Below, one piece after another: positions 2,058-18,098 of a stretch of 33,409 bases of DNA. The first letter of the stretch is position 1; every line of letters starts with the position of its first letter. The DNA comes from a virus. The notes below the pieces were generated by a model. It ran no database searches. It had not been told where the DNA came from and saw only the letters and a list, made by a program, of their open reading frames with translations. The stretch lies in the IMG/VR virus record IMGVR_UViG_3300007538_000016, positions 1 to 33,409 of that record, one strand, 5' to 3'. Made by a program: the position numbers and the translations under genes.

Positions 2058-2563
2058 AACATTGATTGATAGTCGAAGTTGCAGCCGTCAAAGTTAGGGT
2101 AGTCGGTCGGGTTGTCGTCCAAATAAAGCTGAAGATACCTAACGGCCTCGACCGCCCTGTTGTTTACTACTACCGACTTCTTCATTAAGCCTTCTGTGTT
2201 TGCAGCCTCCTGATTGATTGACTTGTTTCCGGTGCTTATGTTTACAATCGACTGCTGAGAAACAAAGTCGCAGTAAGTGAGATAAACAAGAATGTTTTTT
2301 AAGCCCAAACAATAGAACGGAATGTGATCAACAACAGCCTCAAAGTCGCCCCATATAGTTATCCATTTCGCAGTAGTAGGTACAGCAGGGTCGCCCGTCA
2401 AGTCGTCGATAAACGCCTGCCCTAACTCGTCGCCCATAATGCGCTTGATAATTGAGTAGAGCTTCTTGTCCACTAGGAATGTAGCCAAGTCTGTGTCCGT
2501 GTATTGGTCGGTCGCTATCTTTGTGTAACCGCTCGCAAAATCTGTTGTTTTTAAAATACTCAT
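2054..2563 (-). CDS. Head-tail connector-like protein (169 aa)
   Basis: This helical 169-residue protein lies between the capsid block and the neck/adhesin gene. That is where siphophages of this kind encode the adaptor that docks under the portal ring. Size and alternating amphipathic helices (an ILKTTDFASG start and an internal GDELGQAFIDDL segment) fit such adaptors, but I see no diagnostic motif. It starts 4 nt after a TAACTTTG element, so it may be translated from a leaderless mRNA, and its stop overlaps the next ATG (ATGA). The role is inferred mainly from position. Confidence 0.6.
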   Translation of the reverse strand: MSILKTTDFASGYTKIATDQYTDTDLATFLVDKKLYSIIKRIMGDELGQAFIDDLTGDPAVPTTAKWITIWGDFEAVVDHIPFYCLGLKNILVYLTYCDFVSQQSIVNISTGNKSINQEAANTEGLMKKSVVVNNRAVEAVRYLQLYLDDNPTDYPNFDGCNFDYQSML

Positions 2564-2567
2564 AATG

Positions 2568-2575
2568 CAAAGTTA
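2568..2575 (-). promoter_or_regulatory. TAACTTTG -7 element, connector gene
   Basis: The minus strand reads TAACTTTG, matching the Bacteroidota -7 consensus TAnnTTTG, 4 nt before the ATG at 2563. It sits in the T-tract side of the preceding terminator, so termination and re-initiation are packed together. No clear -33 TTTG was found. Confidence 0.55.
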
Positions 2576-2576
2576 C

Positions 2577-2607
2577 AAAAAAGCCCCGACAAATAATCGT
2601 CGAGGCT
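2577..2607 (-). terminator. Intrinsic terminator after the 64-aa gene's upstream junction
   Basis: On the minus strand AGCCTCGAC pairs with GTCGGGGCT (9 bp, one G-T wobble) round an 8-nt loop, followed by six T residues. It ends the transcript of the small gene at 2631-2825 just before the connector promoter. Confidence 0.85.
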
Positions 2608-2630
2608 ACCAATCTAAACACACACAAAAA

Positions 2631-2825
2631 TTATTCTGCTTTATTCTTTCTAGCGCGAGGTTTTTTGGTTGGTTTAGCTTCTTCTGCTTCAGGTGCTTCT
2701 TCTTTGGTTGTGATACCTGATTGAGTTGCCGCACCTTTGGCAATTAAGATTTTCCCTGTTTCCTCGCTTACTTCTTTTTCAACGCCTTTCTTAAGGCTGA
2801 ATTTACCTGTTCCGATTATTTTCAT
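2631..2825 (-). CDS. Small capsid-region protein (64 aa)
   Basis: The N-terminal half (KGVEKEVSEETGKILIAKGA) resembles the short beta-strand plus helix proteins often found next to phage capsid genes (DUF7302-like pattern). The C-terminal half is a Glu/Ala then Lys/Arg-rich tail (KKPRARKN), which could bind DNA or other virion proteins. I take the ATG at 2825. A longer TTG frame to 2843 would run into the TACCTTTG promoter element. It may be a head accessory protein; the function is not established. Confidence 0.6.
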   Translation of the reverse strand: MKIIGTGKFSLKKGVEKEVSEETGKILIAKGAATQSGITTKEEAPEAEEAKPTKKPRARKNKAE

Positions 2826-2840
2826 GATTTCAAATTTTGA

Positions 2841-2848
2841 CAAAGGTA
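2841..2848 (-). promoter_or_regulatory. TACCTTTG -7 element
   Basis: The minus strand reads TACCTTTG, 15 nt before the ATG at 2825. It is the same variant as the one upstream of the major capsid gene (4963-4970). Confidence 0.5.
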
Positions 2849-2853
2849 GAAAA

Positions 2854-3375
2854 TTATTCTTTTTCAGGCTTACACTTCTTTAACCCATCAATCGCTTGCT
2901 CTAATAGCTCAATGGTTTCATCAAAGGCTTTGAACATCCCTAGCGACTCTTGCTTCGGTTGCTCCTTTTTAATAGCGCGCATTTGTTCAAAACCGATATA
3001 AAAATTGTAATAATGTTTGTTTCGGACTACATACCTTTCTTCAAAACTGTTATTAAGGTCGCATATAAACTCGAAGGCTTCCCACTCATGATTATCATTA
3101 TCCCTAACCTCAACCATCTCGCCTCGCTGTGGTGCTAGGAATTCTTCGAGGGTTATTTGTTTAGCACCGTGTTTTATGAATGTTTCTGAACGATTGCCAA
3201 AACTCAAAGCACCAAACTCATCTAAATAAAAAAACCTATCTGTTAAATGTGAGGGTGTCTTTTCACCATCCCTCCAGTTATACCCAAGCTCAAAGGCTCT
3301 TTCCTGAAACTGTTTAGCTTCTCCCCCGTTTCGCGCGTAAAACTTCAAGTCCTGCGCTTTATAGTTGTCTTTCAT
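2854..3375 (-). CDS. Unrecognised protein inserted after capsid gene (173 aa)
   Basis: I do not recognise a family. The protein is soluble, rich in aromatic residues (YNFYIGFEQ; RFFYLDEFGALSFGNR) and ends in a predicted helix with heptad-like spacing (DETIELLEQAIDGLKK). It is bounded by the capsid terminator (3426-3458) upstream and has its own TATATTTG element, the class otherwise used by replication genes. It therefore looks like a separately expressed accessory gene placed in the head region. Alternatively it could be a virion or early host-interaction protein. Confidence 0.55.
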   Translation of the reverse strand: MKDNYKAQDLKFYARNGGEAKQFQERAFELGYNWRDGEKTPSHLTDRFFYLDEFGALSFGNRSETFIKHGAKQITLEEFLAPQRGEMVEVRDNDNHEWEAFEFICDLNNSFEERYVVRNKHYYNFYIGFEQMRAIKKEQPKQESLGMFKAFDETIELLEQAIDGLKKCKPEKE

Positions 3376-14627: not shown

Positions 14628-14822
14628 TCAAAAGTCATTCAAAAAATCCCAATATCCACCTGGACGCGGCTTTCTTCTTCCAAGCAACCAACTTAGCCAA
14701 TGTGGTCGAGGCTTGTATTTTTTTTCGTTGATGCGCTTCATATGGCATTCTACGATGTTGCTAATTTGTTCTTCTGTCAGCTCTTCTGCGAGCGGCCTGA
14801 ATAGTTCTAGCTTTTCTTTCAT
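14628..14822 (-). CDS. Small basic protein (64 aa)
   Basis: No known family is recognised. The first 35 residues are helical and acidic (LAEELTEEQISNIVECHMKRI); the rest is basic and aromatic (KPRPHWLSWLLGRRKPRPGGYWDF). The Pro/Arg/Trp-rich end may bind nucleic acid or membranes. It is the first backbone gene downstream of the accessory insert and sits on the 3' side of boundary element S1. Confidence 0.5.
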   Translation of the reverse strand: MKEKLELFRPLAEELTEEQISNIVECHMKRINEKKYKPRPHWLSWLLGRRKPRPGGYWDFLNDF

Positions 14823-14895
14823 TCTTGTTGTTTTTAGGCGCGATGCGCTGTTATTGTCTACTTTTGGTTCACATATCCGACGTTGTAAGTAATAC
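14823..14895. repeat. Boundary element S1 (cassette-end-like)
   Basis: GTTGTAAGTAATAC (14882-14895) abuts the stop codon of the 107-residue gene. It is the inverted counterpart of GTACTACTTACAAC (15260-15273) on the other side of that gene (13/14 matches). The rest of S1 has a GCGC-GAT-GCGC mini-hairpin (14839-14849) but no strong central stem and no clear outer GTT core, so this end looks degenerate or mixed with phage backbone. Confidence 0.5.
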
Positions 14896-15218
14896 TACTG
14901 CTCGGCTATACTTTCAGCAATCGCTTTTAATAAGGATTCTGTATCTTCCATATCACATCTAAACACATCATTTTCGTGCGGATATACTTCCCAGTACGGT
15001 TGTCCATAGCACCCTAATCTATCGTAACAATCAAGATATATGCTTACACTTGCATTACCTTTTTTAATCTTAAATCTAACAACCGCACCTGCAAATGGTG
15101 GTATTACTTGCACTTGCCAGTCATTAGGGAATGTTATGTGTGGTATCTCACCGCACCACTTTTTATATTCCATTATTCTTTCTACTTCATAAACCTTATT
15201 AAAATCTTCGTATTCCAT
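14895..15218 (-). CDS. Orphan cassette gene, unknown (107 aa)
   Basis: No family is recognised. This soluble, acidic, aromatic-rich protein (WCGEIPHITFPNDWQVQVIP, DCYDRLGCYGQPYWEVYP) has a mixed alpha/beta look and ends in a helix (TESLLKAIAESIAEQ). It stands alone between elements S1 and S2, has no TAnnTTTG element, and is preceded by an AT-rich leader unlike phage backbone genes. As with many single-gene integron cassettes, the product cannot be assigned. Confidence 0.65.
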   Translation of the reverse strand: MEYEDFNKVYEVERIMEYKKWCGEIPHITFPNDWQVQVIPPFAGAVVRFKIKKGNASVSIYLDCYDRLGCYGQPYWEVYPHENDVFRCDMEDTESLLKAIAESIAEQ

Positions 15219-15250
15219 TTTATTATGTTTTTATTAATTAATTTTAGTTC

Positions 15251-15326
15251 TTTAATCCCGTACTACTTACAACAATGTATAAACCCCATTAAAACGAGGG
15301 TTTATACTCAACGTTATCGCAAATAC
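15251..15326. repeat. Boundary element S2: hairpin with AAC/GTT cores (attC-like)
   Basis: A perfect 10-bp inverted repeat, GTATAAACCC (15277-15286) and GGGTTTATAC (15298-15307), has an 11-nt loop. Outside it are CTTACAAC (15266-15273) and CAACGTTATCGC (15309-15320). The flank TTTAATCCCGTACT (15251-15264) recurs as TTTAATCGTACT at S3. GTTATCGCAAATAC (15313-15326) abuts the IbrA-like stop and is the inverted match of S3's GTACTTGCGATAAC. No T run follows, so it is not a standard terminator. Confidence 0.7.
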
Positions 15327-16537
15327 TAGGAAAGCTCGTGTGCTATCCTTCTTTTTTCCTTGATAGCTTTATATTTTTCATAAGCTTCAGATTTAGGCTG
15401 CGTTTGTCCTAACCCTTTACAGTAGTAGTCATTTCGCAATATACATCTAGCCATTCTCTTCCAACTTGGAGCCCAGCACTTTACTTCTAGTTCATGAGGA
15501 GCCTCATCTGGAATAAATGCATACCCCCTTTTCTTCCATCCAACGATAAATTTTATAAAATTTTGCTTGTAATGTTGTTGCATGGTGACGGGAAGCGACT
15601 TTAAAAGATAATTAACATAGCTCTCCCATGTATGATTTTCGGGTTTAGTAACATCATTATAGCCATTTATATTACCTCTTTCGTTAATATACAAAGAACC
15701 TGAATTTACTCCACTAACTCTATTTAAAAGCTTGTACCATGTATTAGGCTCAAGAATATGATAAAGCCACAAACCCCTCTTCTGGTCATCTCCAAATGGC
15801 TGACAAAGCCTTTGATTGCTTAACTTCACTCCAGCCCTTGTCATCATGTCGTAAATAGTATTGTGAGATAAGTATTTATGTTTAGAGTGAAATACCCAAA
15901 TATCCTCCGTTCTCCAATCGTATATAGGATAAACATTGTAAAGGTTTTTAGACACTAATGTAGTCCACTTGTGATTATCAAACATAAGCCCGCTTTTGTC
16001 AGAAACAATAGCTCTGTATCTATGAAGGCTTTCATCTGCTCTAATTCCAATAAAGCCAGCAGTCAAAGCACCTGCTGAATACCATTTCCCAAAAAGCACC
16101 ATAAATTCTTCAAATTCCATTTTTGGAATGTAAAAATCATATTGGCTTAAATCAGATGCTTCATTTGGTTTATCTCTTACCCATATATCTTTATTCTCTT
16201 CATCCCAACAAACCCATTTAGGTTGAAAATCACTAACAGCATTACGAAGCAATAATTCTCCACAAAACCAGTGTAAATCAATATTATCTTTGTATTCTTC
16301 AACAATTTCTCTCACATGGTCTATTGTATTTTTATATTGAGCCTCTAAGTCTATTATTAATAGCCCAACCTTAACTCCCCTTTTTTTAGCTTCCGCCATT
16401 ACTAGGTGTGTCATAACTGTTGAATCTTTGCCTCCACTAAAGCTAATATAGTATTTATCAAACTTGTCAAATACCTTACTAATTCTTTCTTTTGATGCTT
16501 CTAACACAGTTTTGTCTATGTAATTCTTTGTTGCCAT
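15326..16537 (-). CDS. ibrA: IbrA-like PAPS-reductase-family protein (PP-loop ATP pyrophosphatase)
   Basis: The 403-residue protein has the PP-loop SGGKDST (residues 34-40) of the PAPS reductase/ATP-pyrophosphatase fold, followed by an LLIIDLEAQY segment and the C-terminal region (CWAPSWKRMARCILRNDYYC) typical of DUF3440/IbrA proteins. These enzymes adenylate a substrate and are related to DndC of DNA phosphorothioation, but the IbrA substrate is unknown. In E. coli ibrA and ibrB control eib gene expression. It lies 1 nt downstream of ibrB. Base use looks more A+T-rich than in phage backbone genes. Possible roles are nucleic-acid modification or control of host gene expression. Confidence 0.85.
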   Translation of the reverse strand: MATKNYIDKTVLEASKERISKVFDKFDKYYISFSGGKDSTVMTHLVMAEAKKRGVKVGLLIIDLEAQYKNTIDHVREIVEEYKDNIDLHWFCGELLLRNAVSDFQPKWVCWDEENKDIWVRDKPNEASDLSQYDFYIPKMEFEEFMVLFGKWYSAGALTAGFIGIRADESLHRYRAIVSDKSGLMFDNHKWTTLVSKNLYNVYPIYDWRTEDIWVFHSKHKYLSHNTIYDMMTRAGVKLSNQRLCQPFGDDQKRGLWLYHILEPNTWYKLLNRVSGVNSGSLYINERGNINGYNDVTKPENHTWESYVNYLLKSLPVTMQQHYKQNFIKFIVGWKKRGYAFIPDEAPHELEVKCWAPSWKRMARCILRNDYYCKGLGQTQPKSEAYEKYKAIKEKRRIAHELS

Positions 16538-16538
16538 A

Positions 16539-17666
16539 TTAGTATAATTCTACTTGTCTCCCTTTCAATAGAGCCGTGTTAATATCTATTTCGTTTCTAC
16601 CATTTTCCATAAGCCATTTATTAAGATAAATAAACGCCACTTCATTAGCTTCTTTTTGTTGTTCTTCAGTTAAATCAAACCAAGCACTACTATAAGCTGA
16701 TGGGACTCCGCTATGATAACAAACAGCAGCTTGTCCGAGCCATGCAATTCTATTCATGCTGTTATTTGTAAGATAGTGTTCGCAAGAGTGTTTCCATTCG
16801 TTTATAACTTTTTCTAAAATAGATGCAAATAAATCTACATTTGATAATATTCTAACATATTCTGATTTACACTCTTCATTTGTTAGTCCTTGCTTTTTAC
16901 TGTTGTAAAACCCGTATTTATGGCACTCCCATTTGTCGTATGTGTGAAAAATACGCGAACTATCACCTTCATTTGGTATTTTATATTTATCCATGTATTC
17001 ATCAACATTATCACTAATTTTTTCGTATTCGTGAATAGTATCCGATGATTCCCACGCTTTGCTAAAATCGCTATCTGAAAATAAATGCTCTAGTCCAGAT
17101 ATTTGGCAAAGTCTTAATACTTCTTCTTCATCCATGCCTAGCTGTTTGGCAATTCTATGATTAGTCCAATTCCTATTTTTTAGCTCTATAACAATTTCGC
17201 TCATTGCGTCAACTTGATGCTTGCCTCTAGCTCTATTATGTCTAATAGTTGAAGCTATACGGTCATTTTTTCCAGCCTGCTCGCTTCTTATGTTAACGAT
17301 AGGTAGATAGCCCATAATTCGCTTTGAAACTATTTTAGATTCTTTACCAACTCTATTTCTATGGAATCCATCAATAACCTCAATTTTTTCTTTATCGTCG
17401 TTTTCCCATGTAACAATTGGCTGTGTATAACCATCATTTATAATTGAAATTTCAAGCAATTCCATTTCGGGTGGTGCAACTTTATTTGGGTTGTAGTCAT
17501 TTGATACTACATTCTCATTTAATACCCATTTAACGAAATCTACTGGCTCATTTTTAAATGGAGAATTAACATGAATAAACTCTCTAATTTCATTTATTGC
17601 ATCAATTCTTTTTTTGATGCTGCCATTTTCAATCTGTAATAAAATTTGTTTTTTTAAATTTTCCAT
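16539..17666 (-). CDS. ibrB: IbrB-like ParB/sulfiredoxin-fold protein
   Basis: The 375-residue protein starts with a helical segment and then has a ParB/Srx-type domain: DYNPNKVAPPEMELLEIS, GYTQPIV, KIEVIDGFHRNRVGK (94-108, with the conserved D-G-x-H-R) and the TIRHNRARGKH box (140-150). A helix-turn-helix follows (NWTNHRIAKQLGMDEEEVLRL, 166-186). The C-terminal 150 residues are specific to IbrB relatives. ParB/Srx proteins use nucleotides (CTP or ATP) and often bind DNA. It is co-transcribed with the PAPS-reductase-like gene. No TAnnTTTG element is visible; the AT-rich leader lies in boundary element S3. Confidence 0.83.
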   Translation of the reverse strand: MENLKKQILLQIENGSIKKRIDAINEIREFIHVNSPFKNEPVDFVKWVLNENVVSNDYNPNKVAPPEMELLEISIINDGYTQPIVTWENDDKEKIEVIDGFHRNRVGKESKIVSKRIMGYLPIVNIRSEQAGKNDRIASTIRHNRARGKHQVDAMSEIVIELKNRNWTNHRIAKQLGMDEEEVLRLCQISGLEHLFSDSDFSKAWESSDTIHEYEKISDNVDEYMDKYKIPNEGDSSRIFHTYDKWECHKYGFYNSKKQGLTNEECKSEYVRILSNVDLFASILEKVINEWKHSCEHYLTNNSMNRIAWLGQAAVCYHSGVPSAYSSAWFDLTEEQQKEANEVAFIYLNKWLMENGRNEIDINTALLKGRQVELY

Positions 17667-17683
17667 AATAATATTTGTTTTAA

Positions 17684-17762
17684 TTTAATCGTACTTGCGA
17701 TAACAACAGCTATGAGCAACTCCACTCCGTTCCGCTGCGCATAGCTGCGGGCGTTGTATCGC
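17684..17762. repeat. Boundary element S3: two-stem attC-like hairpin
   Basis: Outer arms GCGATAACAAC (17697-17707) and GTTGTATCGC (17753-17762) pair over 10 bp with one extrahelical A. Inner arms AGCTATG (17708-17714) and CATAGCT (17740-17746) pair perfectly. A one-sided 6-nt spacer GCGGGC (17747-17752) separates the two stems. Outer AAC/GTT boxes, an unpaired spacer, an inner stem, an extrahelical base and a variable terminal loop (17715-17739) correspond to attC topology. The flank TTTAATCGTACT (17684-17695) is shared with S2. Confidence 0.65.
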
Positions 17763-17786: not shown

Positions 17787-18098
17787 TCATCGGAATATAT
17801 CGCTTCTGGAGTCATGTCGAATAACCTCTACCTTAGTAACAGCTAAATCCCAGCAGTCTAAAAATGACTCTCTCACGCTTTCAAATAGCGTCCCTGCTTG
17901 CTCCATTTCATAAACAGCTTGGTGTGCTTCGAGTTCAGTCGTTACGTCATAAGGCGACAAAACCTCAACGATTTCTTTTTTGCTAAAAATATCAATACCT
18001 GTGACCTTTACTTTATCTATCCATTGCCAGTCTTTAACCCCATATTCGTAACTTGGGTCTAAATCTTCGTCTGTGAATGCTGCTTGCCAATCGCTCAT
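17787..18098 (-). CDS. Acidic protein of unknown function (103 aa)
   Basis: No family is recognised. The protein is strongly acidic (FTDEDLDPSYEYGVKDWQWID), has a central helix (TTELEAHQAVYEMEQAG) and lacks membrane segments. It is the last backbone gene before the cassette insert. TATATTTG 27 nt upstream separates it from the lysis operon, so it may be expressed early rather than with lysis. Small acidic phage proteins often mimic DNA or inhibit host enzymes; that is only a possibility here. Confidence 0.55.
   Translation of the reverse strand: MSDWQAAFTDEDLDPSYEYGVKDWQWIDKVKVTGIDIFSKKEIVEVLSPYDVTTELEAHQAVYEMEQAGTLFESVRESFLDCWDLAVTKVEVIRHDSRSDIFR

Follow-up and report, generated by a model that had tools for sequence, protein, structure and literature searches.

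The cassette locus and its phage setting

The stretch considered here, 33,409 nucleotides (nt) of the IMG/VR virus record IMGVR_UViG_3300007538_000016 (hereafter the window), carries on its minus strand an IbrB/IbrA gene pair and a gene for a protein of 107 amino acids (aa), with three intergenic sites, S3, S2 and S1, lying before, between and after these groups of genes (Table 1). Terminase, portal, head protease, major capsid and tape-measure genes assign the window to a tailed phage, and a first-pass annotation, made from the sequence alone, was right to place the cassettes inside a phage genome. A RecE-type exonuclease gene is also encoded; an Rfam scan of the window gave no family, and a search of it for the recombinase family described below found none, in keeping with the earlier statement that an integrase gene is absent. 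A second IMG/VR contig (L082) matches the window with 100% identity along all of its 4677 bp and covers the S2 and S1 junctions, confirming both; the population has therefore been assembled twice. The most probable reading of the locus is that a flavobacterium-type tailed phage carries here an orphan array of two site-specific gene cassettes.

Table 1. Features of the cassette locus and its flanks in the window (R1, model described in the text).
Feature	Position	Strand	Description and support
103-aa gene upstream of the array	17787..18098	minus	Either backbone or older unit; no Pfam or PHROG family match
S3, attC-like hairpin	17702..17755	minus	AAC-GCCCG-CAGCTATG...CATAGCTG-TT-GTT; would travel with the IbrB/IbrA unit; R1 20.9 bits, E 0.0066; fold
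Putative mobile unit 1 (S3 hairpin + IbrB + IbrA)	15314..17753	minus	Inferred limits AA|C to AA|C; own start GTTATCGCAAGTAC (17704-17691), own end GTATTTGCGATAAC (15326-15313), 13/14
IbrB-like ParB/sulfiredoxin-type protein, 375 aa	16539..17666	minus	PHROG 2159, E 2e-64
IbrA-like PAPS reductase/DUF3440 protein, 403 aa	15326..16537	minus	Pfam PF11922/PF01507; PHROG 2302
S2, attC-like hairpin	15271..15315	minus	AAC-GTTGA-GTATAAACCC-TCGTTTTAATG-GGGTTTATAC-ATT-GTT; would travel with the 107-aa unit; R1 53.8 bits, E 5.5e-11
Putative mobile unit 2 (S2 hairpin + 107-aa gene)	14883..15313	minus	Inferred limits; own start GTTGTAAGTAGTAC (15273-15260), own end GTATTACTTACAAC (14895-14882), 13/14
107-aa protein, cassette cargo	14895..15218	minus	89% identical homologue in phage contig L162; no Pfam or PHROG match
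S1, hairpin-less 37-nt end module	14848..14884	minus	AACGTCGGATATGTGAACCAAAAGTAGACAATAACAG; same module 3' of other genes in L204 and L462/L466
64-aa backbone gene downstream of S1	14628..14822	minus	Also present in L204
DnaA C-terminal-domain protein, phage backbone	14142..14606	minus	PF08299, E 5.5e-15

Unit ends and folded sites

In both minus-strand units, IbrB/IbrA (17704-15313) and 107-aa (15273-14882), the start is complementary to the unit's own end at 13 of 14 positions (GTTATCGCAAGTAC vs GTTATCGCAAATAC and GTTGTAAGTAGTAC vs GTTGTAAGTAATAC, respectively), exactly as the first-pass annotation had reported in sequence and coordinates. When all GTT..AAC pairs 250-2600 nt apart on this strand of the window were scanned for complementarity of at least 13/14, these two pairs alone (17704/15313 and 15273/14882) qualified, against a mean of 0.28 pairs and a maximum of 2 in 40 dinucleotide shuffles, and both also adjoin hairpins (S3 and S2). 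When a unit is joined to itself, its junction folds into a stem of 15 bp and an inner stem, separated by a small bubble (z -6.6, -6.3 and -4.4), much as an attC site would fold. Inverted ends in each unit would also be shared by small transposons with unit-specific 14-bp terminal inverted repeats; this explanation is hardly credible and was rejected, as the ends vary between units, no transposase was seen, and the units lie head to tail with one hairpin common to two neighbours.

Both S2 and S3 fit the plan AAC-(4-6)-stem-loop-stem-(1-3)-GTT, with a 10-bp stem in S2 and an 8-9 bp stem plus inner pairs in S3, whose own left arm GCGATACAAC partly pairs with the right arm; the two loops differ. 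No hairpin was found at S1 in the fold test (z +1.0); this and the pairing within S3 depart in detail from the earlier description. The comparison with attC models that had been proposed came out differently with the two models used. R1, built solely from recombinase-linked arrays on contigs that had been found through the S2 loop motif, detects S2 and S3 and nothing else significant in the window; elsewhere it detects several sites in the Polaribacter phage P12002L, one in the Flavobacteriales genome G352 and zero class 1 sites. R2, a small class 1-type attC model that recovers class 1 sites, some of them outside its training set, gives a best E of 0.87 in the window and nothing at S2 or S3. 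With two hairpins and no recombinase found in the window, attC status there hinges on the model.

The S2-type hairpin recurs in phage contigs and in Flavobacteriales, at about 20 further loci, with the loop TCGTTTTAATG kept and the stems changing; in contig L086 the change is compensatory, CC/GG at the stem top being replaced by GG/CC. This contig is likewise an array, with IbrB/IbrA homologues and then a DNA methyltransferase unit whose ends match at 13/14. A loop-based pattern search identified at least 120 viral stretches, and a contig of 122.6 kb (L301/L322) holds about 15 or more tandem hairpins, many of whose units keep the own-end rule. Among 108 consecutive strong-hairpin pairs, chosen without regard to their ends, 61 show own-end complementarity of at least 8 nt (mean 4.4, maximum 13 in 1000 shuffles), with a peak match length of 10 nt, and four show such complementarity across the element; open reading frames run away from the upstream hairpin at 90:5. 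The earlier reading that the stems of the units differ while their flanks keep to the own-end rule is supported.

Intergenic hairpins with a recurring loop might alternatively be transcription terminators or repetitive extragenic palindromic (REP)-like repeats that merely lie between genes. This is very improbable, and it was rejected on the statistic of the 108 pairs and on the unit gain in P12002S described below: it leaves unexplained the own-end complementarity of different units, their exact gain and loss, and the linkage to a recombinase and an attI-like site, and no T-run was found 3' of S2.

Breakpoints and unit exchange

Units shared by different contigs indicate what moves. Their alignments start at the upstream AAC, take in the upstream hairpin and finish at the end AAC (L414/L360, 100% identity; L413/L375, 90%; L316/L296, 94%; L379/L369, 89%; L421/L004, 75%). 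The clearest case is a natural one: the Polaribacter isolates P12002L and P12002S are 99.7% identical over 5 kb around one array, where a single additional hairpin+methyltransferase unit is present in P12002S; it sits between ...GCAGGTAAC and the hairpin that opens the next unit, itself 98.6% identical in the two phages. The shared alignments and this gain point to the hairpin plus its downstream gene as the mobile unit, and the limits proposed for unit 1 of the window are set by analogy with the shared units of other phages. It is therefore misleading to say, as the first-pass annotation did, that genes point to their 3' element as they do in integrons: the recombination element moving with each gene is the one upstream.

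At S1, the relative L204, which was reached through primase relatives, provides an exchange of the kind that had been proposed as a check: its backbone, 84% identical to the window over 4.75 kb, is joined exactly at S1 to the end of a DNA methyltransferase in place of the 107-aa gene. The S1 37-mer also lies 3' of another gene in L462/L466, a relative of which in L166 is followed by an S2-type hairpin instead, and the homology between L166 and L462 stops at AAC; for the 107-aa homologue in L162, similarity to the window ends at ...ACTTACAA. BLAST of S1-S3 against the first 80 loci selected by phosphoesterase found no relatives, nor was synteny found among the phosphoesterase relatives. These sequence comparisons show the unit anatomy, the exact AAC breakpoints and the cassette exchange at S1, and they support the view that the units behave as cassettes excised and inserted at GTT/AAC cores.

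The window has an exonuclease gene and no recombinase, and the methyltransferase genes of P12002L and P12002S share patches of similarity; both facts would suit relics in which a site-specific recombinase takes part no longer and hairpin-bearing modules are exchanged solely by the homologous recombination (RecT/exonuclease) of phages. Nevertheless, one and the same trinucleotide, AAC, marks the breakpoints in unrelated contexts, with homology absent beyond it, and this explanation is improbable.

The array-linked recombinase and its attI-like site

In six of the six large records that carry it, a tyrosine recombinase of about 270 aa, one per record, adjoins the array at its gene-3' end, on the same strand and just beyond a conserved hairpin-less site. 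A site of the AAC|TA(n)ATATAT type precedes the recombinase gene by 54-84 nt in 12 of 13 viral recombinase loci, several of which are near-copies of one another; it directly follows the last unit, is variable before AAC and conserved after it, and has an anatomy that would be expected of an attI site. The arrays are linked in sequence to both the recombinase and this site. The recombinases keep all catalytic residues (R-K-H-R-H-Y) and lack the I2 insert present in IntI1. Their nearest profiles, XerA-like and TIGR02249, both score below cut-off (129-156 bits for TIGR02249, cut-off 265), and the nearest folds to a predicted model (pLDDT 82, pTM 0.60) are IntI4 (Z 19.4) and XerA (Z 19.3), a tie that prevents the best structural match from separating IntI from Xer. 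In a phylogenetic tree they group in a single clade (support 100/99) that excludes IntI1 and the other Flavobacteriales recombinases; since IntI1 is the sole IntI represented, the tree does not establish an independent origin.

Among 396 Flavobacteriales genomes, each scored for at most five candidates, IntI (TIGR02249) was not found at 1e-60, while plasmids used as positive controls matched at 1e-153; a recombinase of about 417 aa in G003 was discarded as an ordinary weak match. This bears on the reading of the units as ordinary integron cassettes, with attC downstream of the gene, that came from a bacterial IntI integron and now remain in the phage as a CALIN, a cluster of attC sites lacking integrase. 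Such clusters have been published in phages, P12002L being among the carriers (Qi et al. 2023, PMC9892861), and the supposition that cassette arrays in phages are rarely described is thereby corrected. One P12002L attC site recombined with IntI1 (PMC9892861), although it is not matched here to a particular P12002L hairpin, and the window sites resemble those of P12002L, which share the loop TCGTTTTAATG and match R1. Nevertheless, the unit breakpoints place the hairpin upstream of the gene, the class 1 model has no match in the window, and a different recombinase is linked to these arrays, so that an origin in an ordinary IntI integron of Bacteroidota is unlikely.

Several points weigh against site-specific cassette capture in the window phage. 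Recombination itself is deduced, not observed, and the recombinase was not found in the window, whose cassettes are therefore either moved in trans or relics. The high R1 score of S2 is partly by construction, because the contigs had been found through the S2 loop; S3 reaches only E 0.0066, and the sequence of S1 departs from the attI consensus, TATnATATAT. Among the other phages, pairs among L380, L390 and L414 have a gene in common and not the upstream hairpin, and one P12002S unit violates the own-end rule.

Short hairpin-less modules at array 3' ends were also seen to recur behind different cassettes and before different backbones, for example a 68-nt module present twice in P12002L (L196 37265-37198 and 29239-29172) and the 37-nt S1 (window 14848-14884; reverse strand of L462, near 3068). 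Such modules could represent either stripped attC sites or orphan attI sites. At gene ends in L162 (1773-2345), the phage with the 107-aa homologue, there are three intergenic repeats of the type AACCTACCGCAGATAAGATT, and a similar repeat, AACGTTATATGTGTAAGATTAGTTGCG, occurs in L166 and P12002L; these are possibly a second, hairpin-less type of site.

Proposed mechanism and origin of the cassettes

In the mechanism proposed, each mobile unit would consist of an attC-like hairpin site followed by its gene, with cleavage at AA|C, which corresponds on the bottom strand to G|TT in integrons. The unit would be excised as a circle, the ends of which form a long imperfect hairpin, and units would be inserted and removed at AAC/GTT cores by the XerA/IntI-like tyrosine recombinase of about 270 aa, encoded beside the attI-like site by related, often larger, phages and prophages. 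This enzyme would perform the reaction on single-stranded hairpins and may also act on the window phage, which could have acquired the IbrB/IbrA and 107-aa cassettes with the recombinase supplied in trans by a co-infecting phage, a prophage or the host, or else by recombination with a recombinase-bearing phage. The most likely source of the cassettes is a phage-borne system with its own recombinase, and the arrays that stand next to their own recombinase in related viruses suggest that phages run integron-like gene capture themselves. The cargo probably helps against host defence, as may be judged from the DNA methyltransferases in neighbouring cassettes. Several array units of L301 and L322 encode small proteins with a common N-terminus like MSKEMRxxIDKFK, a recurring cargo family, and ARAGORN found no tRNA in four array regions.

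Relation to known systems

The window array shares with the P12002L CALIN the hairpin family, DNA methyltransferase cassettes among its relatives, a flavobacterial tailed phage as carrier and the lack of an integrase gene; it differs from that cluster as published in its cargo, in a unit made of hairpin plus downstream gene, and in that its family could be followed to arrays with an attI-like site and a recombinase other than IntI. With class 1 and chromosomal integrons, the phage arrays have in common head-to-tail cassettes, folded sites with R stem, bubble and L stem, the AAC/GTT core, and a recombinase that neighbours an attI-like site and whose gene is transcribed in the direction leading away from the array. 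They differ in the recombinase without I2, in sites that the class 1 attC sequence model does not match, and in cassette genes that run towards attI: the class 1 cassette is gene plus attC, whereas the phage unit is hairpin plus gene, its genes reversed in recombination terms. The relative orientation of recombinase, attI and cassette genes is also atypical in Treponema integrons (PMC3607928); however, intI is there transcribed toward attI, while the phage-array recombinase is transcribed away from it and the cassette genes are reversed. XerA, XerC and XerD resemble the phage enzyme in sequence and fold, the nearest solved relatives being XerA-like proteins and IntI4, and in their length of about 270 aa without I2, but the phage recombinase is linked to cassette arrays and not to dif sites. 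The nearest known mechanism without I2 is the integration of CTXphi by XerCD at a folded single-stranded site (PMC4792948), which involves a host recombinase and no cassette array.

Judged by these comparisons, the window has neither an IntI with I2, nor a match to R2, nor a gene-then-attC unit. It has the hairpin form and the start/end complementarity of the phage hairpin-cassette family, whose linked recombinase and AAC|TAnnATATAT site are absent from the window and present in its relatives; its array is an orphan that resembles those of the family. Taken alone, the window would be one more phage CALIN, and it is the recombinase, the attI-like site and the reversed unit that appear undescribed: in the open-access literature, which was searched without subscription papers and preprints, no integron with reversed cassettes or with a recombinase other than IntI was found for Bacteroidota or phages. 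With moderate confidence, Bacteroidota tailed phages can be said to own a complete integron-like capture system, composed of an XerA-like recombinase without I2, an attI-like site and reversed hairpin+gene arrays, distinct from IntI integrons, of which the window phage carries an orphan array. Such a system may have been invented independently, or it may represent integrons at a stage before I2. Integrons are believed to depend on the I2 domain for work on folded single-stranded sites, and their viral origin has so far been a matter of speculation only (PMC4792948); a phage recombinase without I2, with long arrays and an attI-like site, makes that question directly testable. It would also account for the precise, cassette-wise exchange of DNA methyltransferases and similar cargo by flavobacterial phages.

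Carriers of the recombinase

The terminase is encoded on the same record as the recombinase in G407 (310 kb), G797 and G807, and weakly in G412; G409, in which the recombinase lies at 2239-3039, has a head maturation protease, and G414 and G408 a phage-type helicase, nuclease and sigma factor. Recombinase and attI-like site occur together in two of the 396 Flavobacteriales genomes, in prophage-like surroundings: the G089 locus lies among RecT-, SbcC- and hydrolase-like phage genes, and that of G352 near a phage-type primase. A contig of 44,947 bp (L172/L183) appears to be both an IMG/VR virus and part of a Salinimicrobium metagenome-assembled genome, judged by equal size and the same site. In G089, three group II intron copies (Rfam RF02001/RF00029; L460, 2601-8808) lie beside the attI-like site, and two of their junctions, read by eye, split a GTT core, which is reminiscent of class 1 integrons, where introns target attC sites.

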